Positions 6,003-56,893 of a stretch of 64,000 nt of DNA are shown piece after piece (position 1 is the first letter of the stretch; each line of letters starts with the position of its first letter). The translations under genes and the position numbers were made by a program. The stretch lies in the NCBI RefSeq assembly GCF_000706765.1, contig NZ_CP006018.1, positions 124,001 to 188,000 on the forward strand. Reading direction: 5' to 3'. The notes below the pieces were generated by a model. The model saw only the letters and a program-made list of their open reading frames with translations, did no database searches and was not told the DNA's origin. The stretch is from Bifidobacterium [indicum] DSM 20214 = LMG 11587. Its GTDB lineage: Bacteria > Actinomycetota > Actinomycetes > Actinomycetales > Bifidobacteriaceae.

Positions 6003-6026
6003 GTCGAAAAGCACGGGGCCGGTCCG

Positions 6027-6554
6027 GTGGAGCCTGTCAGGTTGGACTGCCAGACTGGCCCTGTGCACGAATCTTGGAAGAGGGCCATGGGCCAGGCCTT
6101 GGATCTGGCTGGACAGGCGGCCAACCAGGGCGACGTCCCTGTGGGGGCCGTGGTCCTGGACGCTCATGGGCAAGTGGTGGGTCGAGGTTGCAACCGTCGG
6201 CAGGCCCAGGGGAGGCCCCTGGCTCATGCCGAGATGGAGGCCATCACCCAGGCCGCCTCGGCCCATGGCCCTGCCGACAGGGCCGACGGTGACCGGGGTT
6301 GGGACCTGTCGGGCTGCACCATGGTCGTCACGTTGGAGCCTTGCCCCATGTGCATAGGGGCAATCCTGGCCTGTCATTTCGACCGTGTGGTCTTCGGTGC
6401 GTGGGACCCCAAGATGGGCGCCTGCGGATCGGTTTGGGACATTCCCCGTGATCCCCACACCGGACCCTCGGCCGAGGTCATAGGCGGAGTGGAGGAAGGG
6501 GCTTGCGCCGACCTCCTCTCGCATTTCTTCAAGGCCCGCCGTCAGGATTCCTGA
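6027..6554 (+). CDS. tadA: tRNA adenosine(34) deaminase TadA
   Basis: Deaminates A34 to inosine in tRNA-Arg(ACG), allowing decoding of CGN codons. Zinc-site motifs are intact: HAEM with His67 and catalytic Glu69, and PCPMC with Cys106 and Cys109. The 175-aa length fits the family. The frame opens at a GTG (6027); a second GTG at 6063 is an equally possible start because neither has a good ribosome site. The gene lies 24 nt after the cation ATPase and may be co-transcribed with it. Family assignment is firm; other cytidine/deoxycytidylate deaminases share the fold but not this motif spacing and size. Confidence 0.88.
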   Translation: MEPVRLDCQTGPVHESWKRAMGQALDLAGQAANQGDVPVGAVVLDAHGQVVGRGCNRRQAQGRPLAHAEMEAITQAASAHGPADRADGDRGWDLSGCTMVVTLEPCPMCIGAILACHFDRVVFGAWDPKMGACGSVWDIPRDPHTGPSAEVIGGVEEGACADLLSHFFKARRQDS

Positions 6555-6754
6555 GCGGGGCTGTTGCGTGGTTTCGTCCCACCAGCGCCGGTGTGACTTT
6601 CAGAACTGCCTAATTGACCATTCCGTCCAACATCCGAACGGACCCCGACCTTGTTTGCTCCGCCGTCTGCATACTGCCAGTAACTCCCCGGGGTCCGATG
6701 GCTCCGGGGACGTTTATCCGCACAGACTATCAATAGCGAAGAAGGCTGATTGCA

Positions 6755-7723
6755 ATGAAGTACGCGGTGATGGGTGCCGGTGCCATGGGATACAGATTGG
6801 GTGTGCTCCTCCAGGAGCAGGCGGGGTTGCAGGTGGACTTCGTCGATACCTGGATGCCCAATGTCGATAAGGTGCGCGATCAAGGCGGGGTCTACGTCTC
6901 ACGTGACCATGAAGGCCGCCATCTGGTTCCCATCAACATTTTCACTCCGGAGGACTATCAGGGCGACCCTGATGTCTGGATCATCATGCTCAAGCAGATG
7001 CAACTGGAGGAGGTCCTGGACAGGTGCGCCCACCTTTTCAAGGACCACCAAGTCGTCTTCTCGGCCATGAACGGATGGGGTCACTTCGACAAGATGCTCA
7101 AGTACTTCCCCAAGGAACGAATCTACGGGGGCACGGCCATGATTGGGACGGTCCTGAACGGACCGGGGGATGTGGACTTCATAGGCAAGTCCGGGGCCGG
7201 TTCCATGCACCTCTGTGCCATGACCGAGAAGACCACGGATCTGGAGCGGGAGATGGCCTCAGACTTCAAGGCGGCCAACCTGAACCCGATCCTTACCGAG
7301 AACTTCGAGGGGACCTGTCTGGCAAAAATCATCTTCAATTCGGTGGTCAACACGATTTGCACCATGTACCAGATCACCATGGGCCAGTTCATCTCCTACC
7401 CGGGAGCAATGGACATGGCCAGACAGCTGATTGATGAGGCCTATGATGCCTGCGAGCGAGCCGGCAAGCAGCTGATTCAGACCCGACAGGCCACCCTGGA
7501 CGAGGTGGACTATGTCAGCCGCGTGGGCAACCCCCTCCACTACCCATCCATGTACCAGGATATGTCGCGCGGGCGCAAGACCGAGGTGGATTACATCAAT
7601 GGGTACATAGCCAGACTTGGCCGTGAGAACGACTACGTCTGCCGGACCCAGGAGTTCCTGACCCATGGCGTCCACCTGGCCGAGTTGGCCTTCCAGGTCC
7701 ACCGGGAGGAGGCCTCCCGGTAG
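6755..7723 (+). CDS. ketopantoate reductase family protein (2-dehydropantoate 2-reductase)
   Basis: A predicted NADPH-dependent reductase of 322 aa; the classical member makes pantoate for coenzyme A. The protein opens with MKYAVMGAGAMGYRLG, a Rossmann dinucleotide-binding GxGxxG. A helical C-terminal domain includes the conserved KIIFNSVVNTI stretch that carries a family Lys and Asn. The start is supported by AAGAAGG 9 nt upstream. A GC-rich inverted repeat at 6685-6710 precedes it. No other pantothenate gene lies nearby, and this family contains many paralogues with other substrates, so panE is plausible but not assured. Confidence 0.78.
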   Translation: MKYAVMGAGAMGYRLGVLLQEQAGLQVDFVDTWMPNVDKVRDQGGVYVSRDHEGRHLVPINIFTPEDYQGDPDVWIIMLKQMQLEEVLDRCAHLFKDHQVVFSAMNGWGHFDKMLKYFPKERIYGGTAMIGTVLNGPGDVDFIGKSGAGSMHLCAMTEKTTDLEREMASDFKAANLNPILTENFEGTCLAKIIFNSVVNTICTMYQITMGQFISYPGAMDMARQLIDEAYDACERAGKQLIQTRQATLDEVDYVSRVGNPLHYPSMYQDMSRGRKTEVDYINGYIARLGRENDYVCRTQEFLTHGVHLAELAFQVHREEASR

Positions 7724-7864
7724 GGTCACATCTTGCTCGTCTGTTTGTCATAGAGCCTCCGGGGATTGCCCTGGGGGCTCCTTTCGAAATGGGCGAAGAC
7801 AGCCCGTATAGTGGGAGTTGCAGAACAAGGAAGTCCTTCGAATCCAGCCTGTGGAAGGAAAGCC

Positions 7865-9775
7865 ATGACCCAGGAAGAGCGCGCGCAGCTATCCGATGCA
7901 ATACGGACCAACGGGGCCACCCCCAACCCCTGGTGGGCCAATGCCGTGGTCTACCAGATCTACCCGAGGTCCTTCCAGGACACCAACGGTGACGGCTACG
8001 GCGACCTGCCGGGCATCACCCAGCGTCTGGACTACCTGGCCGACCTGGGCGTGGATGTGATCTGGCTCAGCCCCGTCTACCGATCCCCTCAGGATGACAA
8101 CGGGTACGACATCTCCGACTATCAGGACATCGACCCCATCTTCGGCACCATGGACGATATGGATGAGCTTCTGGACGAGGCCCATAGCCGGGGAATCAAG
8201 GTGGTCATGGACCTGGTCGTCAACCACACCTCCGACGAGCACGCCTGGTTCCAGGCCTCGCGCACCACCGACGATCCGCATGCCGACTGGTACTGGTGGC
8301 GCCCTGCCAGGCCCGGCCATGAACCGGGAACCCCGGGCGCGGAACCCAACCGGTGGGGGTCATATTTCGGCGGCTCCGCCTGGGAGTACGACCCTTACCG
8401 CGGTGAGTACTTCCTCCACCAGTTCTCGAAGAAGCAACCCGACCTGAACTGGGAGAACCCTCAGGTGCGTCAGGCCGTCTACCGGATGATGAACTGGTGG
8501 ATGGACCGGGGTATCGACGGTTTCCGCATGGACGTGATTGTCATGATTTCCAAGCTGGTCGACGACCAGGGTCTTCTGCCGGGCGAAGAGGGGGCGGCCA
8601 TCCAGGACGGGCCGGTGGGCCCGGAGGGATATTCCTCTCCGGTGCCCTTCTGCGTGGACGGTCCCAGGCTGGATGAGTACCTGAAGGAGATGCGCCGGGA
8701 GGTCTTCGAGGGGCGCCAGGGCTACCTGACCGTGGGTGAGGCCCCGGACCTTCCGCCCGAGCGAAGCGGTGCCATCACCGACCCGGACAATCGCGAACTG
8801 GATATGCTCTTCCTCTTCACCCAGACCGGTATCGACTCCGATGGAAGTAAGTGGAACGTCCGTCCCTTCCGGGCAAGCAGGCTCAAGGATGCCATGGGTA
8901 GGCAGCAGGAGGCCGTGGCCAAGGCGGGCTGGGCCAGCCTCTACTTCAACAACCACGACCAGCCGCGCGTGGTCTCCCGCTGGGGTGACACCTCCACCGA
9001 GGAGCTTCGCACCCGGTCCGCCAAGGCCCTGGGCCTTCTCCTCCACATGCACCGGGGCACCCCCTACATCTACCAGGGCGAGGAGTTGGGCATGACCAAC
9101 GCCGGGTTCACCCGGCTCGATCAGTATCGCGATCTCGAATCCATCAATCTCTATCATCAGCGGGTCGACCAGGCGCACGAGCAGAGCCCGGAATCCATGA
9201 TGGATGCCCTGGCCTATATGAGTCGTGACAACGCCCGGACCCCCATGCAGTGGGATGCGACCAAGTTCGCCGGGTTCACCGCCCCCTATGCCCCCGAGGA
9301 GCCCTGGCTGTCCGTCAATCCCAACCATGACAAGATCAATGCCAAGAGTGAGCTGCGCGACCAGGACTCGGTTCTGGCCTTTTACCGGGAGCTGATTCGC
9401 CTCCGGCACACCAACCCGGTAGTGGCCGCCGGTGATTTCTCCCTCCTGGATCCGGAAGCGGAACAGGTCTACTCCTTCACCCGTTCCCTGGATCAGGCCC
9501 CCGAGCGCAAGTCCGGCCCGGAGGCCAGGAGCATCCAGGAGGCCGTGCCCTGCCAGCGTCTCCTGGTCGTGGTCAACCTGAGCAGCAAGCCCGCAGGTCT
9601 GCCTGAACAGACCGCCTCCCTCCTCGGGATGGACCAGGTTGCCGCCACCTCCATGTCCTTGGGGGTCGGAGACGTTGACCGGATCATGATTTCCACCTAT
9701 CGGCCCGAGCAAACCGTCGGCTCTCTCCTGACCGGCCGTCTGGCCCCCTGGGAGGGATTCGTCTATCGGCTCTGA
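7865..9775 (+). CDS. GH13 alpha-glucosidase (oligo-1,6-glucosidase type)
   Basis: A cytoplasmic retaining alpha-glucosidase, probably acting on isomaltose-type oligosaccharides, panose or sucrose-like glucosides. No signal peptide. GH13 regions are intact: DLVVNHTS from Asp116, GFRMDVI with nucleophile Asp223, VGEAPD with acid/base Glu292, and NNHDQPR with Asp365. The DVI after the nucleophile resembles the oligo-1,6-glucosidase subfamily (GH13_31). The ATG at 7865 is preceded by AAGGA at a good distance; the open frame upstream to 7766 is unlikely to be translated. A TATAGT at 7807-7812 could be the -10 box. Length is 636 aa, slightly long owing to an insertion near residues 540-580. Confidence 0.9.
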   Translation: MTQEERAQLSDAIRTNGATPNPWWANAVVYQIYPRSFQDTNGDGYGDLPGITQRLDYLADLGVDVIWLSPVYRSPQDDNGYDISDYQDIDPIFGTMDDMDELLDEAHSRGIKVVMDLVVNHTSDEHAWFQASRTTDDPHADWYWWRPARPGHEPGTPGAEPNRWGSYFGGSAWEYDPYRGEYFLHQFSKKQPDLNWENPQVRQAVYRMMNWWMDRGIDGFRMDVIVMISKLVDDQGLLPGEEGAAIQDGPVGPEGYSSPVPFCVDGPRLDEYLKEMRREVFEGRQGYLTVGEAPDLPPERSGAITDPDNRELDMLFLFTQTGIDSDGSKWNVRPFRASRLKDAMGRQQEAVAKAGWASLYFNNHDQPRVVSRWGDTSTEELRTRSAKALGLLLHMHRGTPYIYQGEELGMTNAGFTRLDQYRDLESINLYHQRVDQAHEQSPESMMDALAYMSRDNARTPMQWDATKFAGFTAPYAPEEPWLSVNPNHDKINAKSELRDQDSVLAFYRELIRLRHTNPVVAAGDFSLLDPEAEQVYSFTRSLDQAPERKSGPEARSIQEAVPCQRLLVVVNLSSKPAGLPEQTASLLGMDQVAATSMSLGVGDVDRIMISTYRPEQTVGSLLTGRLAPWEGFVYRL

Positions 9776-9948
9776 GTCTCGTCATCCCATTCCGGCCGGT
9801 CAATTATGGCAACCACCTGGTCATGCGGCTACAGTGGAACCTATATGTCGTGGTTTTCACCTGCCCGCCCCTGATGGTCGGGTCGGACCGGGGAGCGACA
9901 GGTAGACCGGCATTGGCTTGGCCGGTCCGGACAGGAGAGTGGTGCCGT

Positions 9949-12399
<2,451 letters not shown>

Positions 12400-12578
12400 G
12401 GGGAGTCTCCTCCCTGTTTTCCAGCCGATTCGGCTTCTCCCGTAGGGCCGGATATTCACGCCTTCATGGAGGTTCCCGACCCTGTCTTGCCCGTTCAGCT
12501 TCTTTTCATCGGGCGACCATGTCCACCATGTTGACACCGGCTCGTCACGAGTGGGCGGGGCGGGGATAATGATTGAGC

Positions 12579-13844
12579 ATGGATACCAATGAAGTCGATG
12601 TTGACCTGAGGGCGGATCATGCCGCCAACCTGCGGGATGCCGCCAAGCGGCTTGAGGGTGTGGCCAGGCACACCCGGATCGAGCACTCGCAGGAACTCGG
12701 TGACCGGGTGGGGCACAAGGTGCTGCTCAAGCCCGAGAACCTACAACTGACCGGTTCCTTCAAGGTGCGCGGTGCCTACAACAAGATTGCGTCCCTCTCA
12801 CAGGAGGATCTGGATCGGGGAATCATCACCGCCTCGGCGGGCAACCACGCCCAGGGTGTGGCCTTCGCCTCCCGGCATCGCGGAGCACAGGCCACCATCG
12901 TCATGCCCCAGATAACTCCGCCCCTGAAGGTGGATGCCACCAAGGCCTACGGTGCCGAAGTGGTCCTCAAGGGGAACGTGTTCGACGAGAGTTTCGCCTA
13001 TGCGCGGCATCTGGCCGACGAGCGTGGAATGACCTTCGTTCACCCCTTCGATGATTACGAGGTTCTCTGCGGGCAGGGCACCATTGCCATGGAGATCCTG
13101 AACGATGTGCCCGATGTGACCGACATCGTGGTTCCGCTGGGTGGTGGAGGTCTGGGTGCCGGAGTCGCGCTCGCGGTCAAGACCTTCAGGCCCGATGTCC
13201 GGGTCATCGGAGCCACTCCGGTCGGTTCTCCGGCCTGGCGCGAGTCCCTGACCGCAGGCAGGGTCGTGGCGGCCGACCAGGTCAGCACGGCGGCCGAGGG
13301 TGTGGCCGTCAAGCGCCCCGGCGACCTGGATTATGCACTGCTGAGCCATTACATGGACGACCTGGTGCAGGTCACCGAGAGTGACATATCCGAGATGATT
13401 CTCTTCATGCTGGAGAAGCACAAGCTGGTGGTCGAGGCCGCCGGGGCCGTCTCCCTGGCCGCCCTGGGTCAGCTCGATCTTCAGTCGGATGTCTTCCGCG
13501 CCGCCCCCGGGCCCCATGTGATTGTCCCCATCATCTCGGGCGGCAACATCGATACGGTCACCATCGGCGCCGTCATCCAGCGGGGGATGATATCCCGCGG
13601 CCGTATCATGCAGTTCGGCGTCGAGCTTCCTGACACCCCGGGTCAGCTGGTCAAGGTCGCCACGGTCCTGGCCGATCTTCGCGCCAACGTCATCGAGCTC
13701 AACCATGACCAGTTCAAGTCCTCGGGCCACTACGAGAACGGTGTCCTCCTTGAGGTGACGGTCGAGACCAATGGTCCCGACCACATCACCCAGATTCTGG
13801 ATACCCTACGTAGCCAGGGCTTCCAGGTTCATCAGAACTACTGA
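12579..13844 (+). CDS. ilvA: threonine ammonia-lyase (threonine dehydratase)
   Basis: A PLP enzyme converting threonine to 2-oxobutanoate plus ammonia, the first step to isoleucine. The PLP lysine is Lys62 in GSFKVRGAYNK; the glycine-rich phosphate loop is PLGGGGLGAGVA. The C-terminal ~80 residues from about 340 look like one ACT-type regulatory domain, making this the shorter form (421 aa) rather than the two-ACT biosynthetic enzyme of E. coli. The ATG at 12579 is preferred to an in-frame TTG two codons earlier. The gene converges with the sirtuin gene and their 3' ends overlap by 7 nt. Confidence 0.88.
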   Translation: MDTNEVDVDLRADHAANLRDAAKRLEGVARHTRIEHSQELGDRVGHKVLLKPENLQLTGSFKVRGAYNKIASLSQEDLDRGIITASAGNHAQGVAFASRHRGAQATIVMPQITPPLKVDATKAYGAEVVLKGNVFDESFAYARHLADERGMTFVHPFDDYEVLCGQGTIAMEILNDVPDVTDIVVPLGGGGLGAGVALAVKTFRPDVRVIGATPVGSPAWRESLTAGRVVAADQVSTAAEGVAVKRPGDLDYALLSHYMDDLVQVTESDISEMILFMLEKHKLVVEAAGAVSLAALGQLDLQSDVFRAAPGPHVIVPIISGGNIDTVTIGAVIQRGMISRGRIMQFGVELPDTPGQLVKVATVLADLRANVIELNHDQFKSSGHYENGVLLEVTVETNGPDHITQILDTLRSQGFQVHQNY

Positions 13845-14599
13845 CCCGGGTTCCGTGCGATGGTCTCGTCCACCAGCCTGGGCAAGGCCTCCTCTATCGG
13901 TTCATGAATCAGCCGTGTGGCCAAGGAATCGTACTGGGTCTGCCCCAGATTCATGATGGTTATGGGCACGCCTGCCTGTGCCGCAACGGGTACCAGGGAG
14001 GCGGCCGGGAAGACCTCCAGGGTGGACCCTATCACCCAGAATTCGTCGGCGCTGCTGGCCAGTTTCATGCTTTTCTCCATGGCACCCTCGGGCAGGGCCT
14101 GACCGAAGTAGACCACATCCGTCTTGATGATGCCGCCGCAGGGCATATTCCCCTGGTAGGGCATGCGCTTGCGGCAGTGGGGATCCGGCTCCTGGTCCAG
14201 CCGTTCCATGATGTCGGCCGTCCGGTATTCCTGGCCGCACTTCATGCAGTGCGAGGTGCCGATGGTCCCGTGCAGGTTGACGATTACCTGGCTGGAATTG
14301 CCGGCCTTCTCATGAAGGGCGTCGAAGTTCTGCGTGGCCAGGAGCATCAGCATGCCCGCCTTCTCCAGCCTGGCCAGGGCCTTGTGGGCCACACCCGGAT
14401 GGGCCCTCCAGACCGGTGACTCCTTCTGCCAGCGCCATGAGTACTCCCGCGCCTCTCTGTCACTCATGAAGAGGTCGAGGTCGTACACGCTCGTCTGATC
14501 GGGATGCTTGGTCCAAACCCCATCTGGCCCGCGAAAATCCGGAATTCCTGCCGAGGTTGAAATGCCTGCGCCGGTCAGTACTGCAATTGTTTTGCCCAT
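13838..14599 (-). CDS. NAD-dependent protein deacylase, sirtuin (SIR2/CobB) family
   Basis: Predicted to remove acyl groups from protein lysines using NAD+. In the 253-aa protein I see GAGISTSAGIPDFRG (10-24) for NAD binding, TQNFD (89-93), the catalytic His110 in LHGT, and zinc Cys118, Cys121, Cys142 and Cys154. All catalytic elements are present. TQNFD in place of the usual TQNID is a conservative change. The gene overlaps ilvA tail to tail by 7 nt. A 14-base C/G homopolymer lies about 64 nt upstream of its start codon, so its promoter region may be length-variable. Confidence 0.9.
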   Translation of the reverse strand: MGKTIAVLTGAGISTSAGIPDFRGPDGVWTKHPDQTSVYDLDLFMSDREAREYSWRWQKESPVWRAHPGVAHKALARLEKAGMLMLLATQNFDALHEKAGNSSQVIVNLHGTIGTSHCMKCGQEYRTADIMERLDQEPDPHCRKRMPYQGNMPCGGIIKTDVVYFGQALPEGAMEKSMKLASSADEFWVIGSTLEVFPAASLVPVAAQAGVPITIMNLGQTQYDSLATRLIHEPIEEALPRLVDETIARNPGQ

Positions 14600-14633
14600 A
14601 CCCTTTGTCTTACACCATCAGGTTTCAGGATCA

Positions 14634-14858
14634 TCAGCCGAGAGCCGCCCGGGTCTTGATGTCCCCCCCCCCCCCCTGTATCGCCGCAGCTATCGACGGA
14701 TTCGCCAAGGCCCGAATTGAAGACTGGATATATGCATGTTCGTAGGTACCGATTACCACGGTCGGCACCTTGGCGATGTCATAATCGAAACGGTCCTGGA
14801 AACACGCCGTCATGCGGAAGTTAAAGGGGGCAGATGTGAATAAAATGTGCTCGGATTA
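14634..14858 (-). pseudogene. short decayed ORF / gene remnant containing a G14 tract
   Basis: Read on the minus strand, an open frame runs from just after a stop at 14858-14856 to a TGA at 14636-14634, about 74 codons. From an internal ATG (14813) it encodes 59 aa that look protein-like: acidic/aromatic start, then VPTVVIGTYEHAYIQ, then SSIRALANPSIAAAIQ. A run of 14 G gives four glycines, and the frame ends 10 codons later. I do not recognise the family; the VVIGTYEHAY segment loosely recalls C-terminal strands of GH3 enzymes, which is only a guess. There is no start with a ribosome site, so I treat it as the remnant of a larger gene upstream of the sirtuin. Confidence 0.3.
14663..14676. repeat. 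14-base C homopolymer
   Basis: Fourteen consecutive C on the plus strand (G on the minus strand), the longest homopolymer noticed in the window. It sits between the sirtuin start codon (14599) and the remnant ORF. Such tracts vary in length by slippage and are also prone to sequencing error. Confidence 0.9.
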
Positions 14859-15060
14859 GGGGGGTTTGCACCGGGGAAAGGGCCGACAGAACAAAGCAGA
14901 TGATGATGATCGTATTTCCGACACGCCGATACGAGGACTGGAATTACTGGATTAACGACGGTCTCCATAATTTCTGATTTGCGGAATGACGCATGCGTGG
15001 TAAGTTTATCTCTTGCTGCTCAACACGGCGGTTCCTCTTCCAAGAAGAGCGTGGACTGCT
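14859..15060. other. intergenic region before the rRNA operons
   Basis: No gene is supported here. The only clear structure is a perfect 6-bp hairpin, CTCTTC-CAA-GAAGAG, near 15035-15049, just before the 130-nt repeat block. The minus-strand short ORFs have no recognisable product. Confidence 0.35.
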
Positions 15061-15190
15061 GTGCAGAGGGGATTCCTGAAAAGGTGAAGGTCGGATTGCA
15101 AGGGGCGGCGTTAAAAATGCCGACACGCCGTAAAACCGTTGCAATGATTGAGCTTCTCCGATACTCAAGCGTACCAATTTGCAACAACCA
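15061..15190. repeat. 130-nt direct repeat block, copy 1 (rRNA promoter region)
   Basis: Identical by eye to 20335-20464 (offset 5274). It contains nested inverted repeats: ATTGCAA 15095-15101 with TTGCAAT 15139-15145, enclosing CGGCGT 15106-15111 with ACGCCG 15125-15130; and TTGAG 15148-15152 with CTCAA 15164-15168. Its 3' end carries the -35 hexamer TTGCAA of the likely rRNA promoter. Its right border falls between the -35 and the -10. It has no terminal inverted repeats of the kind expected for a transposable element. Confidence 0.85.
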
Positions 15191-15207
15191 GGTAGTTCGT
15201 GTAAATT
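15179..15207 (+). promoter_or_regulatory. likely rRNA operon 1 promoter
   Basis: TTGCAA (15179-15184), a 17-nt spacer, then TAAATT (15202-15207), about 68 nt before the boxA-like element. The -35 lies in the 130-nt repeat block and the -10 in the rRNA repeat unit. The second operon keeps the -10 but not the -35. Confidence 0.55.
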
Positions 15208-15274
15208 GTTCTTTTGCTGCCCGACAGCGACAAGGAATCTCCCGGATAACTTGAGACTGTTGGTGTGGTGGTGG

Positions 15275-15287
15275 TTTGAGAACTCAA
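15275..15287 (+). promoter_or_regulatory. boxA-like rRNA antitermination site, leader 1
   Basis: TTTGAGAACTCAA matches the actinobacterial rRNA boxA core. The surrounding GGTGTGGTGGTGGTTTGAGAACT recurs in the 16S-23S spacer (core at 17223-17232), as expected for Nus-factor loading sites before both large rRNAs. Confidence 0.6.
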
Positions 15288-15462
15288 GAGCGTGTTTGTG
15301 CTACTTTTATAGCTTTTTTGATTGCCAGTCCGATGCCCGCCCGGTTTTGCCGGGTACGCGGGAGCGTTGTGAGGGGTGTCGGGGTTTTTCGTGGGTCTGT
15401 TTCCTCCTTATGGAAGCGGATCCGTCAATTTATTATGAGAGTCGTTTCGGCTTCTTCATTGT

Positions 15463-20334
<4,872 letters not shown>

Positions 20335-20464
20335 GTGCAGAGGGGATTCCTGAAAAGGTGAAGGTCGGATTGCAAGGGGCGGCGTTAAAAATGCCGACAC
20401 GCCGTAAAACCGTTGCAATGATTGAGCTTCTCCGATACTCAAGCGTACCAATTTGCAACAACCA
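20335..20464. repeat. 130-nt direct repeat block, copy 2, inside the end of 23S operon 1
   Basis: Same sequence as 15061-15190. It replaces, rather than interrupts, the native 128 nt (25896-26023 in operon 2): 23S sequence stops at 20334 and the 23S-5S spacer resumes at 20465 with ACCCACCCCCC. Only CT is shared at the left junction, so ordinary homologous recombination does not explain it. Confidence 0.85.
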
Positions 20465-20631
20465 ACCCACCCCCCTTGAGGGGTGGAGGCATCGACACCA
20501 CTGCGAACGAGACCTGCGGCAATGAACACGAACGGCCACAGGCGATCGACAACGAAACACGCGTCCACCGTCCGGTCCCCGAACCGTCACCACGACCCAC
20601 CCACCTTTCAAAGTGGGCCGGTACAACAGAA

Positions 20632-20750
20632 TTTGCGGCGGTCATGGCCTGGGGGAGACGCCCGGTCCCATTCCGAACCCGGAAGCTAAGACCCAGCACG
20701 GCAATGGTACTGCACTCGGAAGGGTGTGGGAGAGTAGCACACCGCCGCTC
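20632..20750 (+). rRNA. rrf: 5S ribosomal RNA, operon 1
   Basis: About 119 nt, from TTTGCGGCGGTCATGG to CACACCGCCGC, with the conserved CCCGGTCCCATTCCGAACC core and pairing 5'/3' ends. Identical to the copy at 26191-26309. No terminator follows: the leader repeat of operon 2 begins two bases later. Confidence 0.93.
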
Positions 20751-20835
20751 CGGTAGTTCGTGTAAATTGTTCTTTTGCTGCCCGACAGCGACAAGGAATC
20801 TCCCGGATAACTTGAGACTGTTGGTGTGGTGGTGG

Positions 20836-20848
20836 TTTGAGAACTCAA
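20836..20848 (+). promoter_or_regulatory. boxA-like rRNA antitermination site, leader 2
   Basis: Second copy of TTTGAGAACTCAA; the matching spacer copy is at 22784-22793. Its retention would help read-through transcription of operon 2. Confidence 0.55.
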
Positions 20849-21023
20849 GAGCGTGTTTGTGCTACTTTTATAGCTTTTTTGATTGCCAGTCCGATGCCCG
20901 CCCGGTTTTGCCGGGTACGCGGGAGCGTTGTGAGGGGTGTCGGGGTTTTTCGTGGGTCTGTTTCCTCCTTATGGAAGCGGATCCGTCAATTTATTATGAG
21001 AGTCGTTTCGGCTTCTTCATTGT

Positions 21024-26016
<4,993 letters not shown>

Positions 26017-26190
26017 ACACAACACCCACCCCCCTTGAGGGGTGGAGGCATCGACACCACTGCGAACGAGACCTGCGGCAATGAACACGAACGGCCACAG
26101 GCGATCGACAACGAAACACGCGTCCACCGTCCGGTCCCCGAACCGTCACCACGACCCACCCACCTTTCAAAGTGGGCCGGTACAACAGAA

Positions 26191-26309
26191 TTTGCGGCGG
26201 TCATGGCCTGGGGGAGACGCCCGGTCCCATTCCGAACCCGGAAGCTAAGACCCAGCACGGCAATGGTACTGCACTCGGAAGGGTGTGGGAGAGTAGCACA
26301 CCGCCGCTC
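26191..26309 (+). rRNA. rrf: 5S ribosomal RNA, operon 2
   Basis: Same sequence as 20632-20750, followed 11 nt later by a strong terminator hairpin. Confidence 0.93.
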
Positions 26310-26319
26310 CACAACTCAC

Positions 26320-26358
26320 AAGGGGCCCCGCACGGCACACGCCGCGACGGGGCCCCTT
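26320..26358 (+). terminator. rRNA terminator after operon 2
   Basis: An 11-bp perfect stem, AAGGGGCCCCG with CGGGGCCCCTT, and a 17-nt loop. It is the only such hairpin in the rRNA region, so both operons appear to end here. Confidence 0.75.
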
Positions 26359-26640
26359 CCACATACCCCGACACAACAACCCACAACGCTGCGGGACCCA
26401 CTCCTCACAGCACAAACGCCACAACACCGACTGTTGCCGGCTTCGGATGCCCGGGCGGCCCGAAAGTTCGGTAGAAGCACCTCGCAATGAAGCGACGGGT
26501 TGCAACAGAATGAAAAAGCTGTGCTTTAAAATGAGGGCCGTCATATAATTCTTAGCGGTGGTGCGGTGATCAATGCTGAAACCGCATGACTCCAGTAACA
26601 GGTGAAGCATATCCATCGCGAAGTTCAGGGGGGAACAGGC
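26359..26640. promoter_or_regulatory. promoter region of the beta-helix protein
   Basis: No gene is supported. A perfect TATAAT at 26544-26549 lies 92 nt before the chosen start at 26641; the -35 is weak. AGGGGGGAACAGGC directly precedes the ATG as a ribosome site. Confidence 0.45.
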
Positions 26641-29600
26641 ATGAATGGGAATAGGAATATCCACACGGGGCCAGGAGATCGAGATTGGTTGACTGCCGCA
26701 GGAGAGGCGACGCGATGGACGGTCCCTTCGTTCCCTGCAATCCTGATTGCCCTGGCAACTTTGGTTTCCTTGGTGCTTACAGGGCTGATTGGTCCCGTCC
26801 ATGCCGCGGCCGCTGAGGAGGCCGCTGGTGGCGTACCCTCTGAGGGTGGCAATGGCCGGACCTTTACCTCGGTTGGTGTGTCACAGACCGGCAGGACCTA
26901 TTACGTTGATTCTCTGCACGGTAATGACGCCAATGATGGTCTGGAACCGACGCGGGCCTGGAAGTCCCTGGGCAAGGTCTCCGCAACGACGTTCGTTCCC
27001 GGTGACCATATCCTCCTTGAGTCGGGGTCGACCTGGCAGGGGCAGGTACGGCCGAAGGGGGATGGGAATGGTTCCGAACGGATTGTTCTGGATTTCTACA
27101 CCCGCAAGGCGGATGGGTCCGCATCATATGAGGCGGGGCGACGCCCTGTCATCAACGGTGGGGGAACCTACGGTTCGGGCTCCTTCAAACGGTATGTGTC
27201 GGGTGCGGTGCAACTGACGAACCAGGAGTATTGGACCATCAGGAATCTTGAGGTCACCAATTCCCCGGAACCGAACAACCCCGAAGGTTATAAGAAGCAT
27301 GGTGATGCCCAGAGGGTCGGGATACTCCTGCTGGGATTCGGGCAGAACAGGATGCTTGAATCCGATACGGTCGAGAACTGCTACGTTCATGATGTGCAAT
27401 CGGAGTACTACCTCCAGGCCAGGAGGGAAGGCAAGTCGCAGACCCTCAAGGCCGTGGGAGGCATCATCGCCTTGGGGCACTGGGTCGATCAGGATGGGCG
27501 AACCCTGGGTAAAGGAGTGACCAATACAGGCTTCCACAACCTGACCATACAGAACAACATCGTTCAACGGGTGGGCCTCGAAGGCATACGGACCAAGGCG
27601 GACAGTTCCAATGACTCATCCCCTGGGCTCTTCGAGAAGGTCACTATCAGGAACAACTACCTGGAGGATATTGCCGGCGATGCCATTGTCATCTCAGAGA
27701 ACAAGGCGCAGGGGCTGGTTGAGGGCAATACCGTGGTGCGGGCCTGCAACGCGGACTACGGAACCGAGAACTACGCGGCCATCTGGGCCATGGCCAGCAA
27801 GGACGTCCTCCTTCAGTTCAACGAGGTCTACGGCAATACCCATGGGTATAACGACGGCGAGGCCTTCGACATCGATATGGGCTGCGACCGAATCACCTAC
27901 CAATACAATTACAGCCACAACAACGGTGGTGGCTTCATGCTCCTCATGAGCAACCAGACCAACTCCGTCATCCGCTACAACATCTCGGTGAACGACGGGG
28001 CGGGGAACTCGGGCACCAATGCGGCCGGCCCTGGTCACGGCTCCTACGATTACAAGGAGCAGAGCCTCTTCCATTACTGGATTTCCGATCCGGGTGCCAG
28101 CATGCCGCAGATATACAACAACACCTTCTACGTGGGTGACGGGGTCTCGACCTCCCTCTTCGGGGAGGGCAACTCCGGCGACAATTCCGGTACCATTGCC
28201 CACTTCACCAACAACATCCTCTACAAGACTGGCTCGGGAAGTCTGAAGTTCCTGGCGGCGTATCCGCCTGACGGCAGTCGGCCCATAGAGCACAGACTGC
28301 ATGGCAACCCGGGTGACTTCATCAAGCACAATCTGATCTGGCCCGACACCGTCCCAACCGCTGCCAGCGGAACCACCGTTGAGGAACTGGAGGCGTCCGG
28401 GAACGTCTTCCAGACCCCGAAGCTGGTCATTGACCAGAACTCAGATGCAGCCGAGGCGATCCGGAACCAACTCGGCACCACCCTTTCCAACCCTGAAACG
28501 TCTCTTCCCTGGTCTGACCAGGTCGACCGGATGCGTACGCGGGCTTCCCTTTTCAGGATCCAGGCGGACAGCCCCGCGGTTGCGGCCGGTATCAGGATGG
28601 AAGGCGCACCGGACCAGGACATGTTCGGAGGCAGCACGAAAGACCGGGGCATCGATATTGGGGCCACCCAGGTCTCCAACCACGAGATCGCCACCAGGTA
28701 TGAGATTCCTGAGACCAGGGTCAACACCTTTGCAGGGGTCTATCCTGCCTTGCCGGAGACCCTGAAGGTGACGGTCAGGGAGTCGTCCGGTGGAACCATG
28801 ACCGAGAAGGTGACCAACATGCCGGTTACCTGGGACCAGCTCAACCTCAGCCAGTTCGGTCAGGCGGGAGAGTTTACGGTTGCAGGCAGGATTCCGGGCA
28901 TTCCCGACCAGGCCAAAGCCTCCGTGACTGTGACAGGGCAGGTGGGTTCGGGCCGAAACAGGGACGTCAGGTCCCTGGCTGGTCAAGCGGCCACTGTAGA
29001 ACGTGGCTCAAGCGAGGCCATAGGCGCCAAGCCCGGGACCTCGTCCAAGGCCACGGGGGACAAGTACCCATTCGGTGTCTCCTATTCGAACAACCTGGTC
29101 CTGAAGCTGAAGAACTCGTCTTCGGCCTCCTACAACCGTCGTTTCTATGTCAAGGTCGATCCCTCCGCCTATCCCGGACAGGCCGACCAGATCAAGAAGG
29201 CCAAGCTGCGGGTCTACCTGTCCAGGTTCGACATCAACAACAACGCGGGGAGCACTGATGCGGAAAGATTGAACAACACCGCCTTCAGTGTCGACGTTTA
29301 CAAAACCGATCCCGGCTGGGACCAAAGCACCCTGACCTGGGCCAACGGCCCACTCAATGCCGAGGTGACCGAAGCCAACCATCGTCCTCTGGGGTCCGGT
29401 GAGACCATCCCCGACTACGCCGTACTCCGACCCGGAGCCCATCAGGTCTTCACCAATAAGGAGATCATCGACAACGGGTATGCCGTCGACATCGATGTGA
29501 CCTCGATTGTCCGAAGCATGGGCGGATCACGGCTTACGGGTCCGGTCAGCTTCCTGGTCGACATACCGATGAGTGATACCCCGAACTTCAATCGCGATAA

Positions 29601-30804
29601 CGGTGGCTTCGATGCCTTCTCGGTGGAAGGGGCCCGGCAGGCCTATGCCGACTTCCAGAGCGGCCTGCTGACCATTCCCGCCGGGGTGAGCAAGCCCACT
29701 GATGAACACAGTCTGGCACCGCAGCTCCTCGTTTCCGATGCCTACATCACCTCGGTGGGGGCCGTTTCGGTTACCTCCAAGCCTGGCCAGGTGCCGAATC
29801 TGCCGGATACCATCATGGTCGGCTATTCCGACGGGAAGTTCATCAGGGAGACTGTGGACTGGAAGGTCGACCCGTCCCTGCTTACCCAGGATGGTGTCTA
29901 TACGGTGCAGGGAAGGATCCGGGACGATACCACCATGGTCGGGGCCAAGGTCACGGTCAAGTCGGATCCAATCACCTCCTTCGAACCCCTTCCCGTTTTG
30001 GATAAGCCCGTTGGGCTGGCAAGGCAGGAGCTGGGTATGCCCACGAAGGTCAAGGCCAACCTGGCATCAGGCGAACGGGTTGAACTGACCGTGACCGGCT
30101 GGGACGATGACCCCTCCAACTACACGGAGAAGAGCGCTCCAGGCACCTATCGCTTCCCGGGGGGTGTCAGTCTGCCCATGGGTATCAGCAATCCCCTGAA
30201 CCTGAAGCCGATTCAGGAGGTCCGTACCCACCCCAGGCCAGAAACTGTGGAGTTGGGAGTGAAACGCCCTGAGGTCATCCGTGGCAAGACGGCCCGGGTT
30301 TCCTTCAAGATTCACGCGGCGGCCCCTTTTCCGAAGCTTGATGATTGGGGTAAGGGGGTCGTCTGGACCATTACGCCCGTGGGGACAGGCCAGGGGCTGC
30401 GGCAAAACCTGCCCACGGTTGACTCTCGCGGGCGGGTGCGGACCTACCGGGACACGCCTCTGGGGTCCTATAGGGTCACGGTAACCAGCACCCGGATTGC
30501 GACGGTTGCGGGGTCCGTTGAGATTCGTGTGGTTGCCCGGTCCGGCAAGGCTTCTCTGACGCAGAAGCTGAACCGAACCAGGGCCGTCACCCCCTCGGCA
30601 GTCCACCGGCTCATGGCTGCCGGTGATGTTTCATCGAGGGCCGCCCTGGTCGATGTTGAACGACTCGGCGACGATTCCGAGGCGGTCCTGCCCTCACCGG
30701 ATGCAACCCTTCCGGGGATGCGGCCCTCTTGTCAAGTGGGCACCTTGCGGATGAGCGCAAATCGTAGGGGTGCGGCGATAGGATTGCACCAGCTGGATTT
30801 CTAA
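26641..30804 (+). CDS. large secreted right-handed beta-helix protein with Ig-like and DNRLRE/CBM-like domains
   Basis: An exported 1387-aa protein, probably a polysaccharide-active enzyme or binding protein. The signal peptide is long: a charged N-region, a hydrophobic core around 33-52 (PSFPAILIALATLVSLVL), and a cleavage-like AHA site. Residues ~80-680 are a parallel beta-helix (many N-ladder turns such as NLTIQNNIVQRVG and VTIRNNYLEDIAG), beginning YYVDSLHGNDANDG as in secreted pectate-lyase-like proteins. A Big_4-like Ig module lies near 690-780, a DNRLRE/CBM96-like jelly roll near 840-1080, then further Ig-like repeats to ~1280. The last ~100 residues are basic and lack an LPXTG, membrane anchor or SLH domain, so it appears free or bound non-covalently. 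The start uses the strong ribosome site at 26625-26635. Substrate unknown. Confidence 0.75.
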   Translation: MNGNRNIHTGPGDRDWLTAAGEATRWTVPSFPAILIALATLVSLVLTGLIGPVHAAAAEEAAGGVPSEGGNGRTFTSVGVSQTGRTYYVDSLHGNDANDGLEPTRAWKSLGKVSATTFVPGDHILLESGSTWQGQVRPKGDGNGSERIVLDFYTRKADGSASYEAGRRPVINGGGTYGSGSFKRYVSGAVQLTNQEYWTIRNLEVTNSPEPNNPEGYKKHGDAQRVGILLLGFGQNRMLESDTVENCYVHDVQSEYYLQARREGKSQTLKAVGGIIALGHWVDQDGRTLGKGVTNTGFHNLTIQNNIVQRVGLEGIRTKADSSNDSSPGLFEKVTIRNNYLEDIAGDAIVISENKAQGLVEGNTVVRACNADYGTENYAAIWAMASKDVLLQFNEVYGNTHGYNDGEAFDIDMGCDRITYQYNYSHNNGGGFMLLMSNQTNSVIRYNISVNDGAGNSGTNAAGPGHGSYDYKEQSLFHYWISDPGASMPQIYNNTFYVGDGVSTSLFGEGNSGDNSGTIAHFTNNILYKTGSGSLKFLAAYPPDGSRPIEHRLHGNPGDFIKHNLIWPDTVPTAASGTTVEELEASGNVFQTPKLVIDQNSDAAEAIRNQLGTTLSNPETSLPWSDQVDRMRTRASLFRIQADSPAVAAGIRMEGAPDQDMFGGSTKDRGIDIGATQVSNHEIATRYEIPETRVNTFAGVYPALPETLKVTVRESSGGTMTEKVTNMPVTWDQLNLSQFGQAGEFTVAGRIPGIPDQAKASVTVTGQVGSGRNRDVRSLAGQAATVERGSSEAIGAKPGTSSKATGDKYPFGVSYSNNLVLKLKNSSSASYNRRFYVKVDPSAYPGQADQIKKAKLRVYLSRFDINNNAGSTDAERLNNTAFSVDVYKTDPGWDQSTLTWANGPLNAEVTEANHRPLGSGETIPDYAVLRPGAHQVFTNKEIIDNGYAVDIDVTSIVRSMGGSRLTGPVSFLVDIPMSDTPNFNRDNGGFDAFSVEGARQAYADFQSGLLTIPAGVSKPTDEHSLAPQLLVSDAYITSVGAVSVTSKPGQVPNLPDTIMVGYSDGKFIRETVDWKVDPSLLTQDGVYTVQGRIRDDTTMVGAKVTVKSDPITSFEPLPVLDKPVGLARQELGMPTKVKANLASGERVELTVTGWDDDPSNYTEKSAPGTYRFPGGVSLPMGISNPLNLKPIQEVRTHPRPETVELGVKRPEVIRGKTARVSFKIHAAAPFPKLDDWGKGVVWTITPVGTGQGLRQNLPTVDSRGRVRTYRDTPLGSYRVTVTSTRIATVAGSVEIRVVARSGKASLTQKLNRTRAVTPSAVHRLMAAGDVSSRAALVDVERLGDDSEAVLPSPDATLPGMRPSCQVGTLRMSANRRGAAIGLHQLDF

Positions 30805-30814
30805 GGAAGAAACA

Positions 30815-31753
30815 ATGAAATATATGAATATCGGGGTCTCGGGTGTAAAGGCCTCCCGCGTGGCTCTGGGGGCCATGCGGATTGACACCAAGTCGCCCGA
30901 AGAGGCCGCCGCGATCGTCCAATCGGCCTTGGATGCGGGAATCGACTATTTCGATACAGCGGATTGCTACCACAATGGCGAGAGCAGCAGGGTGTTGGGT
31001 CGGGCCCTGAGGGATCTCTGCATCGACCGGTCAGATGTCGGCATCCAGACCAAGGTCGGCATCTTCCGTGACCCGGACAGTGACAAGATCACCAGGTATG
31101 ACTTCTCGGCCGAGCATCTGATTGCGGCCGTTGACCAGGAACTGGAGAACCTCCAGACGGACTACGTCGATTACCTGCTCCTGCACAGGCCGGATACCCT
31201 GGTCGAGCTGGACCAGCTGGCAGAGGCCTTCAATGTCATGCAGGCCTCGGGGAAGGTTCGCCATTTCGGTGTCAGCAATGTCAACCCCATGCAGGTCGAA
31301 CTTCTCCAGAGCGCGGTCAGTCAGAGGCTGGACGTCAACCAACTGCAGTTCGGGCTGGGGCACACCGGTATGGTCCAGCAGGAATTCCACGTCAATATGA
31401 TTGATGCGCCCAGCCTGGATCATGATGGTGGGTTGATTTCCTACTCCCGCCTGAAGCACATGACCATTCAGGCATGGAGTCCCTTCCAGACGGGGTTCTT
31501 CGAGGGGGTCTTCATTGATAATCCCAAGTTCCCGGAGCTGAATGACCGCCTGGAGCAGGTGGCCGGGAAGTACGGCGTCAGCAAGAGCGCCATCGCTGTG
31601 GCCTGGATTCTTCGTCACCCCGCCGGCATGCAGGTTCTGCTAGGGTCCATGACCCCATCCCGCATTACCGAGATGGCCGCCGGGGCAGATGTGGAACTGA
31701 CCGCCCAGGAGTGGTATGACCTCTACCTGTCTGCCGGGAACGACCTTCCTTAA
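30815..31753 (+). CDS. aldo/keto reductase
   Basis: A predicted NADPH-dependent oxidoreductase of 312 aa with a TIM-barrel fold. The catalytic set is visible: Asp47 and Tyr52 in FDTADCYHNGE, Lys80 in QTKVG, and a His in LLLHRPDTL. AAGGAAG precedes the ATG by about 6 nt. Only 10 nt separate it from the beta-helix gene, so the two may share a transcript. It resembles the YdhF-like branch; the substrate cannot be read from sequence. Confidence 0.85.
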   Translation: MKYMNIGVSGVKASRVALGAMRIDTKSPEEAAAIVQSALDAGIDYFDTADCYHNGESSRVLGRALRDLCIDRSDVGIQTKVGIFRDPDSDKITRYDFSAEHLIAAVDQELENLQTDYVDYLLLHRPDTLVELDQLAEAFNVMQASGKVRHFGVSNVNPMQVELLQSAVSQRLDVNQLQFGLGHTGMVQQEFHVNMIDAPSLDHDGGLISYSRLKHMTIQAWSPFQTGFFEGVFIDNPKFPELNDRLEQVAGKYGVSKSAIAVAWILRHPAGMQVLLGSMTPSRITEMAAGADVELTAQEWYDLYLSAGNDLP

Positions 31754-31796
31754 GGCGATTTCGGCAGGTTGAGAGGTTCGGTCTTCAAGGTATTCC

Positions 31797-32042
31797 ATGC
31801 ACTACTTCACTCCCAAGCGATGCGCCAGCACGTCGAAAATCATGTATCACGACAAGACGAAGGCGCTTCGAGCCGCCGATCAGAGTCTGGTCGAGCGAGG
31901 TGCCCGGCTCTGGGTGTACCGATGCCAGTACTGCGGTACCTGGCATCTGACCAGCCGTGAGCCGGGATCCTACGCCCGGGTGCCCCTCAATCAGCAGTTG
32001 AAACCGCATTCGCGGAAGAAGGGGTACAAACCAAGACGTTGA
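31797..32042 (+). CDS. small zinc-ribbon-like conserved protein
   Basis: An 81-aa basic protein with one CxxC pair in YRCQYCGTWHLTS, a knuckle seen in small actinobacterial and phage-related proteins of unknown role. AAGG lies 6 nt before the ATG. The C-terminus is Lys/Arg-rich (HSRKKGYKPRR), consistent with nucleic-acid binding, which is inference. The His in the WHLTS segment could complete a metal site with the two Cys. It lies 43 nt after the reductase gene on the same strand. Confidence 0.6.
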   Translation: MHYFTPKRCASTSKIMYHDKTKALRAADQSLVERGARLWVYRCQYCGTWHLTSREPGSYARVPLNQQLKPHSRKKGYKPRR

Positions 32043-32079
32043 AATATGAGGTCCGGTCGGTGCAGTGCTGCCCGGTCGG

Positions 32080-32925
32080 TCAGCGGTTCATATCGAAACC
32101 CTGGGCTTGGATGGAGGGGAGCATGGGCTCATGGTCCCCCTTGGGATTGCAGGATTTATCGGCCATGATCTGGCTGAAAGCCTTGCGCGGCGCATCCAGC
32201 TGGCGCAGGTCCCGGTAATAGAGTCTGACCGCTTCATCGAAGTCCTTAAGTGCCCGCTCTGCCTCGCCGGGCCTCTCGGACTGGCCATAGGAGTTGAGGA
32301 ATATCTGCGCGGCCCGTGGCATGCGCGGCTTCAATGGTGGGTCCTGGTCGGGGTGGCCGATGGCCAGGCCCAGCACCGGGTAGACCAGGCGGGGCAGGTC
32401 AAGCAGGTCGATCAGTCCTTCCACATCGTTGATGACGCTGCCCAGGATGACGGAGCCCAGGCCCAGTGAGTTGGCGGCCGTCTCCATGGCATGCAGGGCA
32501 AGAACGGCATCATTCTGGGATTGCAGGAAGGCATATCCCGTATTGAGCACAAACGTATCTGCATCGATGTCAACCCCTTCTTGCCGGGCCAGGTCGGCAT
32601 TGCGACGCTGGTCGGCGAGGAAGATGTACAGAAGGGGTGCCTGGGACACGTAATCCTGGTGAGCCATGTCGGCAATGGCCCGGGCCTTGTCGGAATCGGT
32701 GATGCGGATGGCGGACCATTCGTTGAAGTACCGGCTGGTGGCTGCATGTTGGGCCGTCTCCTCCAGAACGGCAACCGTGTCAGGGTCGATTGCCTCATCG
32801 GTGAAGGAGCGGATGGTCCTGCGGTTGAGCAGGGTATCGATGGTCCGGTTGCGGACGGTCCTCTCGTATTCGGCGGATTCTCCGCCCTTCCCGGCCTCAC
32901 CGGGAGACTGTATTGAAGTGGTCAT
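32080..32925 (-). CDS. nitroreductase family protein (FMN oxidoreductase)
   Basis: A predicted cytoplasmic FMN- and NAD(P)H-dependent reductase of 281 aa. RRTIRSFTDEAID near the N-terminus is the typical FMN-phosphate binding start of the NfsA/NfrA branch, and GLGSVILGSVIND matches the conserved mid-domain segment. PVLGLAIGHPDQDPPLKPRMP is the usual C-terminal signature. The ATG at 32925 is preferred to a TTG twelve codons upstream, although neither has a strong ribosome site. It converges with the zinc-ribbon gene. The substrate is unknown. Confidence 0.85.
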   Translation of the reverse strand: MTTSIQSPGEAGKGGESAEYERTVRNRTIDTLLNRRTIRSFTDEAIDPDTVAVLEETAQHAATSRYFNEWSAIRITDSDKARAIADMAHQDYVSQAPLLYIFLADQRRNADLARQEGVDIDADTFVLNTGYAFLQSQNDAVLALHAMETAANSLGLGSVILGSVINDVEGLIDLLDLPRLVYPVLGLAIGHPDQDPPLKPRMPRAAQIFLNSYGQSERPGEAERALKDFDEAVRLYYRDLRQLDAPRKAFSQIMADKSCNPKGDHEPMLPSIQAQGFDMNR

Positions 32926-33133
32926 GGTGTCATTGTGTCCATCGCGGCAGAAGGGACACAAGAACCGAGAGGTTAATCTTGCTCAGAGAATAGTGACATA
33001 TATCCAATTGCGCCCGGTATCCCTGACGGCTGCGCCTTGAATCGGATTTACCGCAGAACATGGAATCCGCCACGCGACCTGCACCGGTCCGATACTTGGT
33101 GGGCAGGTTGCGGCAGTGCGGGTACTCCGGGGC

Positions 33134-33496
33134 TTACCGATGGCGCTTGTCGATCAGGGCCTGGGAGCCGCGTCCGATCAGCTCGGATGCCAGGGTGGTC
33201 ACGGCCGCCGAAAGTACCGCAAAGAGCAGTCCGGCAGTCGCGCTCTCCTGGTCGCCCTCTTCGGTGTCCACGCCACCATTGCGCTTGCGGACCAGACTGC
33301 CCCAAAAGGCCTGGAAGAGTTTGCCGGCCACCAGACCTGCGATGCTGGGGAGGGCGAACTTCATGACCTTGTCCATAAGGGTTTCCGGATCTGACTCGAC
33401 TGAAGAGCGCATTTGGTTCACCTTGTCATCTATACGGTGGAATACGCCGACCAGGTGGTCGGCCTGATTGCCCGATTCATGCTCTGCCATGCTCAT
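33134..33496 (-). CDS. DUF4235-like membrane protein
   Basis: A 120-aa protein with two hydrophobic segments, one around 46-66 (KFALPSIAGLVAGKLFQAFW) and one around 88-108 (AGLLFAVLSAAVTTLASEL). They are joined by a charged loop of VRKRNGGVDTEEG type. This is the pattern of the actinobacterial DUF4235 family. The open frame continues far upstream, but that part is antisense to the histidine phosphatase and I exclude it. ATG at 33496, with a second ATG two codons later. Role unknown. Confidence 0.65.
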   Translation of the reverse strand: MSMAEHESGNQADHLVGVFHRIDDKVNQMRSSVESDPETLMDKVMKFALPSIAGLVAGKLFQAFWGSLVRKRNGGVDTEEGDQESATAGLLFAVLSAAVTTLASELIGRGSQALIDKRHR

Positions 33497-33559
33497 ATGG
33501 CCATTATTCCACGGATGTGGATGGAGCGGTGGCGTTGAAGCCGGTGATAGAGTTGCACC

Positions 33560-34261
33560 ATGGCTACTGTAGATCAAGCCGCAGGCAAGGAGGCCTCGGA
33601 AACCGGTTGTTTGGTACTGCTCAGGCATGGGCAGACGGCCTGGAGCCTCAGTGGACAATACACCGGCAGAACGGACATCCCCCTGACCGAGGAGGGTGAG
33701 CGGCAGGCGGCTGCTGCGGGGGTTCGACTTTCGTCGGACTTCCCCGAAGGATTCGATGCCGGTTGCGTGTTCGTCAGCCCCCTGATGAGGGCAAGGCAGA
33801 CGGCCCGGCTGTCCGGATTCGACCGGTTCGAGATCATGCCTGAACTGGTTGAACGGGATTATGGCCACGCTGAAGGACGCAGAAGGCGGGATATCCAGCG
33901 TCATCTTGGACGGGATTGGGATGTATGGACCGATGACCCTTCGGTCCTGACCCATGACGGCAGTGGTGACCGGCAGGAGGTCTTGCCGGACGGTTCGTTG
34001 GTCCAGGTTCGGGTCACCGGGGGAGAGAGCCTGGCTGCGGCGGCTGCCCGCACGCGCGGAATCATCGAGAGGGTGGCACCTCTGGTCGATGAGGGCCGTC
34101 GGGTTCTTCTGGTCTCCCACGCGCACATTTTGAGGGTGCTGGCCACCCAGTGGATGGGGCTGAACCCCTCTGCGGCGAAACTGATGAGACTCTATACGGC
34201 GCATTACGGAGTTCTGGGGAACTACCAGGGGGACAGGGTTCTCAAGACCTGGAACTGCTGA
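33560..34261 (+). CDS. histidine phosphatase family protein (phosphoglycerate mutase-like)
   Basis: A 233-aa member of the RHG-motif superfamily. LLRHGQTAW holds the phosphorylated His23 with Arg22, VERDYGHAEG supplies the acid/base region, and VSHAHI carries the second catalytic His. It is shorter than a glycolytic dPGM and lacks that enzyme's conserved insert, so a broad or alpha-ribazole/acid phosphatase-type activity is more likely. It is divergent from the DUF4235 gene, with 63 bp between the start codons. Confidence 0.8.
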   Translation: MATVDQAAGKEASETGCLVLLRHGQTAWSLSGQYTGRTDIPLTEEGERQAAAAGVRLSSDFPEGFDAGCVFVSPLMRARQTARLSGFDRFEIMPELVERDYGHAEGRRRRDIQRHLGRDWDVWTDDPSVLTHDGSGDRQEVLPDGSLVQVRVTGGESLAAAAARTRGIIERVAPLVDEGRRVLLVSHAHILRVLATQWMGLNPSAAKLMRLYTAHYGVLGNYQGDRVLKTWNC

Positions 34262-56722: not shown

Positions 56723-56820
56723 AGGCAGTCGGCCAGGCATGGTTGGCGCGGTCGGTACTTATGTTGCCGGCCGTGCTGATCAGGAAGGTGCCGGAATCGG
56801 CTGATTGGCCAAAGGCCCTG

Positions 56821-56893
56821 TGGAGCTGAGGGTAGTCGAAACCCCGACCTCTTCGATGCGAACGAAGCGCTCTACCAACTGAGCTACAGCCCC
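56821..56893 (-). tRNA. tRNA-Ala(CGC)
   Basis: Minus-strand 73-nt cloverleaf: acceptor GGGGCTG/CAGCTCC with one G-U pair, D-stem GCTC/GAGC, anticodon stem CTTCG/CGAAG around loop TTCGCAT (anticodon CGC), T-stem GGGGT/ACCCT around TTCGACT, discriminator A. The 3' CCA is not encoded. It reads GCG alanine codons. Confidence 0.92.

Follow-up and report, generated by a model that had tools for sequence, protein, structure and literature searches.

The window analysed here, a stretch of 64,000 nucleotides, comprises positions 124001-188000 of contig C1 in the single-contig genome of Bifidobacterium indicum LMG 11587 (1,734,546 bases) and contains two rRNA operons in tandem, named operon 1 and operon 2 in the following (Table 1). 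To describe this locus, we denote the natural upstream flank plus leader as U1, a block of 130 nt as X, the 67 nt that follow X and precede the part common to all operons as L, the rRNA body shared by the operons as A, the native 23S end as N, and the 23S-5S spacer plus 5S gene as B. A sequence comparison showed that operons 1 and 2 are identical over 5144 nt, from 15191/20752 to 20334/25895. At this point operon 1 continues with an exact copy of 15061-15190 (130 nt, or 132 nt including the shared CT in front), which is far beyond chance. Thereafter the operons re-join, 20465-20751 being identical to 26024-26310 over 287 nt; B (26024) begins one base after the Rfam end of 23S and ends one base after that of 5S. 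A first-pass annotation of this DNA had claimed the identity up to 20334/25895 and the switch to a copy of X, the re-joining, the order X-A-X-B-A-N-B, and the replacement of 128 nt of native sequence (N, 25896-26023), all of which was borne out by our comparison. Its block A is indeed common to both operons, but the first 67 nt (15191-15257, i.e. L) belong with X as the leader of a third operon, which is described below. According to ARAGORN, the 16S-23S spacers (16990-17398 and 22551-22959) are devoid of tRNA genes, and the single tRNA of the entire window is located at 56820-56893. The region 3' of operon 2 (26602-30804) is occupied by an open frame of 1400 aa, which by eye resembles a secreted surface protein.

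Table 1. Features of the tandem rRNA locus in window coordinates.
Feature	Position	Strand	Basis
U1, natural upstream flank and leader of the rRNA locus	14638..15060	+	Matches G026 5' of both its tandem operons
X copy 1, third-operon leader between U1 and the operon	15061..15190	+	100% identical to C1:24712-24841
L copy 1, final 67 nt of the third-operon leader	15191..15257	+	Comes after X in the third operon, in its own genome and in G026
16S rRNA of operon 1	15465..16989	+	Rfam RF00177
23S rRNA of operon 1, up to the end of agreement with the other operons	17399..20334	+	Rfam RF02541
X copy 2, occupying the place of the 23S 3' end	20335..20464	+	100% identical to 15061-15190
B of operon 1: 23S-5S spacer and 5S rRNA (20634-20750)	20465..20751	+	100% identical to 26024-26310
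L copy 2, fused directly to the 5S end without X	20752..20818	+	5S-L join in 0/61 non-own loci (many overlapping, not all reaching the joins)
16S rRNA of operon 2	21026..22550	+	Rfam RF00177
23S rRNA of operon 2, complete	22960..26023	+	Rfam RF02541, model 1-2925
N, native 23S 3' end that operon 1 lacks	25896..26023	+	Operon 2, third operon, 23S ends of relatives
B of operon 2: spacer and 5S rRNA (26193-26309)	26024..26310	+	Rfam; identity to B of operon 1
Anomalous join U1/X	15060/15061		
Anomalous join 23S/X	20334/20335		
Anomalous join X/B	20464/20465		
Anomalous join B/L	20751/20752		

Both 23S genes were called with Rfam, at 2470.4 bits for operon 1 versus 2580.5 bits for operon 2. The gene of operon 1 fits the model well up to the breakpoint and poorly beyond it. 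N corresponds approximately to model positions 2799-2925 of LSU_rRNA_bacteria and holds the final hairpins as well as the 3' strand of the terminal helix. GACAACAC, located at 26013 in operon 2, and GTGTTGTC, located at 17400 at the 23S 5' end, are complementary to each other; GACAACAC was not found in 20301-20500, the end of operon 1. The claim that the lost stretch pairs with the 23S 5' end is in agreement with these findings. A functional bacterial 23S possesses a complete 3' end with the partner strand of its terminal helix; in operon 1 as assembled, N and with it GACAACAC are missing.

X and L have a counterpart elsewhere in the same genome. A third rRNA operon is located at about C1:24.7-30.4 kb, i.e. 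about 114 kb upstream of operon 1, and has the order X-L-A-N-B. It is 100% identical to operon 1 over 15061-20334 and to operon 2 over 20752-26375. X-L is the leader of this third operon, and the genome contains three exact copies of X, all of them at rRNA operons. As is to be expected of an assembly error, the anomalous pieces X and L are exact copies from another repeat copy of the same genome. The last 70 nt of U1 and L gave a local alignment score of 29, the highest score among 500 shuffles being 27; because these stretches are related leaders, operon 1 as assembled has two related leaders in a row.

According to the riboSeed work (PMC6009695), the flanks of equivalent rRNA operons are conserved between related strains and differ within one genome, which is why a comparison of flanks with those of relatives works as a test. 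The closest comparison is offered by another genome of the same species (G026, 1,755,151 bases). It is like the window in that two operons stand in tandem at the syntenic locus, and it is unlike the window in that a U1-type leader precedes both operons, neither X nor L is present, and the 23S ends are complete. U1 of G026 matches the window up to 15060 and abuts, before both operons, the base homologous to 15258; the 197 nt of third-operon leader in the window therefore stand where the inter-operon repeat of G026 begins. All three 23S genes of G026 run into N, and X-L occurs only before its third operon. Downstream, window positions 26484-34000 match G026 from C1:159205, about 7 kb past its second operon. 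These approximately 7 kb (G026:C1 ~152070-159205) separate the tandem pair from the point at which synteny with the window resumes; their first 2.9 kb, the part searched, gave one weak match of 131 nt in the genome of the window. The tandem pair of G026 is itself a perfect direct repeat of 6,338 nt (3746-10083 and 10083-16420 of G026:C1:136000-155000), which extends into the flanks by about 420 nt upstream and 362 nt downstream. This repeat may have arisen very recently by duplication, or it may be a further assembly fault. An average nucleotide identity above 98% between B. indicum LMG 11587 and B. coryneforme LMG 18911 is cited in PMC10092428.

The comparison was extended to other genomes of the genus, many of them draft assemblies with contig breaks at rRNA operons. 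Without any X-L, a U1-type leader directly precedes A at the corresponding locus of G001, G003, G008, and G028. In the tandem pair of G004 this holds for one operon, and the second operon has an L-type leader. The leader at the syntenic locus of G024 is L-like, and those of G007 and G019 have diverged too far to be judged. The anomaly is thus missing from the orthologous locus in G026 (both operons), in G001, G003, G008, and G028, and at one operon of G004. Because of the L-type second operon of G004 and the L-like leader of G024, the presence of L before operon 2 would on its own not prove an error. In the tandem region of G004 (C1:170000-188000), the two operons with different leaders, U1-type and L-type, are separated by about 1.1 kb, which by eye resembles a small pair of toxin-antitoxin genes.

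Four joins of the assembled locus are anomalous (Table 1). The first-pass annotation had proposed a search of related genomes for X fused to 23S; this join, like U1/X, X/B, and B/L, was found in none of 61 non-own loci, many of them overlapping and not all reaching the joins, when up to 4 mismatches in 40 were tolerated. At the same stringency, the natural 23S/N join is present in 29 of the 61. The natural joins U1/A, X/L, and L/A were found only in G026 loci; N/B was seen in G026 plus one further locus, and B/D in no relative. As the flanks are mostly too diverged outside G026, the test is weak there for three of the four joins. The counts are strong for 23S/X and mainly a G026 result for U1/X, X/B, and B/L. 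Judged by eye, three of the joins have no base in common between donor and site, and the fourth has either none or 2 nt, the longest shared sequence being the CT at 20333-20334, which is available only with the X copy of operon 1 as donor. With respect to known boundaries, U1/X is placed at a repeat boundary and X/B as well as B/L at or one base past the Rfam gene ends, and 20334/20335 coincides with none. The position 15060/15061 is exactly the base at which the inter-operon repeat of G026 begins, and an insertion at this site is as expected of a contig end.

In summary, the sequence comparisons argue for an assembly or finishing error at the repeated rRNA operons as the cause of the 23S end swap at 20335-20464, and we assign this reading a probability of about 95%. 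The swapped end is almost certainly not a real feature, and in the real chromosome the 23S gene of operon 1 is most likely intact at its 3' end. The 130-nt block had been recognised as anomalous in the first-pass annotation, but its extent was put too small: X-L at 15061-15257 and the join of 5S and leader at 20751/20752 are anomalous as well, which strongly suggests that the suspect stretches are 15061-15257 and 20335-20818. The source of the pieces and the lack of the joins in G026 are observations; as for the route of gap filling, we infer that a consensus rRNA contig, at whose 5' end stood about 197 nt of leader from the third operon, could have been used to fill a repeat gap and pasted behind the U1 contig, which would stop exactly at the repeat start. 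The piece between the operon copies would then have been mis-ordered, such that the native 23S end, the 5S block, and the inter-operon sequence became X, the 5S block, and L. As the G026 repeat may itself be imperfect, the true spacer and the number of operons in LMG 11587 may differ from those assembled.

A similar problem is the misassembly of rRNA operons in short-read closures as treated in the riboSeed work (PMC6009695). There, too, long identical repeats cause unique flanks to be mixed up, and related strains reveal the right arrangement through the flanks of their equivalent operon. The LMG 11587 locus differs in that the interior of an operon is also broken, the 23S end being replaced by the leader of another operon; moreover, the genome may have been closed otherwise than by short reads. 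PMC5540593 names Illumina and MIRA for its own new genomes, among which LMG 11587 and LMG 18911 need not be. In the literature library searched, no paper combined Bifidobacterium with misassembled tandem rRNA operons.

The first-pass annotation had offered two readings, an assembly error at a tandem repeat and a real 23S lacking its terminal helix. The former is strongly backed by the comparison with the same species and the genus, whereas the latter gained no support. If the rearrangement were real, the third-operon leader would have been copied into the tandem locus, leaving a 23S gene without 3' end and terminal helix; operon 1 may in this case be a standing rRNA pseudogene, possibly still giving 16S and 5S rRNA. 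The single-contig genome does read so, tandem rRNA operons exist in G026 and G004, and a strain that has further intact operons could conceivably tolerate one broken 23S. Some natural 23S genes also depart from the standard form, as is the case for fragmented 23S with intervening sequences and for rRNA pseudogenes, which arise by real events. Operon 1 resembles these variants in having a 23S gene off the standard form; unlike in these, the substitute is the leader of another operon, and the joins did not turn up in any relative. A real event would, however, need several joins with almost no homology, all made from unchanged pieces of rRNA operons and one of them exactly at a repeat boundary, and the U1/X edge is not producible by crossing-over or gene conversion. 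As, in addition, no anomalous join was found in any relative examined, we consider a real rearrangement highly improbable. Gene conversion between operons was also considered separately and ruled out by reasoning, as it would not give a blunt U1/X edge with U1 intact.

If X were a small mobile element or repeat with insertions next to and within rRNA operons, its three exact copies in the genome would be explained. Such an element should have boundaries of its own and unrelated insertion sites, but the edges of X are not natural ones in relatives, and all three copies are at rRNA operons. Part of X was matched in 13 of 26 relatives (E ≤ 0.001), and in each of these 13 the match runs past the end of X. 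Similarity to the region upstream of the third operon crosses the 5' edge of X in five relatives (G001, G003, G008, G010, G028); consequently X has no natural start in these genomes. The diverged homologue is thus part of a longer conserved leader that crosses both edges of X. When X was searched for alone, none of 18 relatives gave a match, and no exact match to a 27-mer of X was present in a genome contig database, which possibly excludes the genome of the window and near ones. On these grounds X was rejected as a mobile element or repeat family, and the probability left for this origin is negligible.

More closely related to the preferred reading, an assembly error, is a sub-case in which the tandem pair itself is an artefact: one real operon, of which a copy was given to each flank, with the middle patched. 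It is compatible with the explanation by assembly error, and the confidences in the two overlap. Seven of the nine relatives in which the stretch was examined have a single operon in about 11 kb (G001, G003, G007, G008, G019, G024, and G028, the synteny of G019 being unproven), and the patched middle would hold most of the anomalies. Against this speak the tandem at the same locus in G026, the tandem in G004, and a table in PMC5540593, in which the complete genome of B. indicum LMG 11587 (CP006018) and the genome of B. coryneforme LMG 18911 (CP007287) are listed with three rRNA loci each, although these numbers presumably stem from the same assemblies. We therefore regard an artificial tandem as possible but rather doubtful.

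These results concern the genome of a type strain. Until it is re-sequenced, the 23S gene of operon 1, the leader in front of this operon, and the inter-operon stretch are unfit for work on rRNA copy number, promoters, and 23S variants. Inspecting the flanks of equivalent operons in relatives is a cheap check, which exposes errors of this kind.
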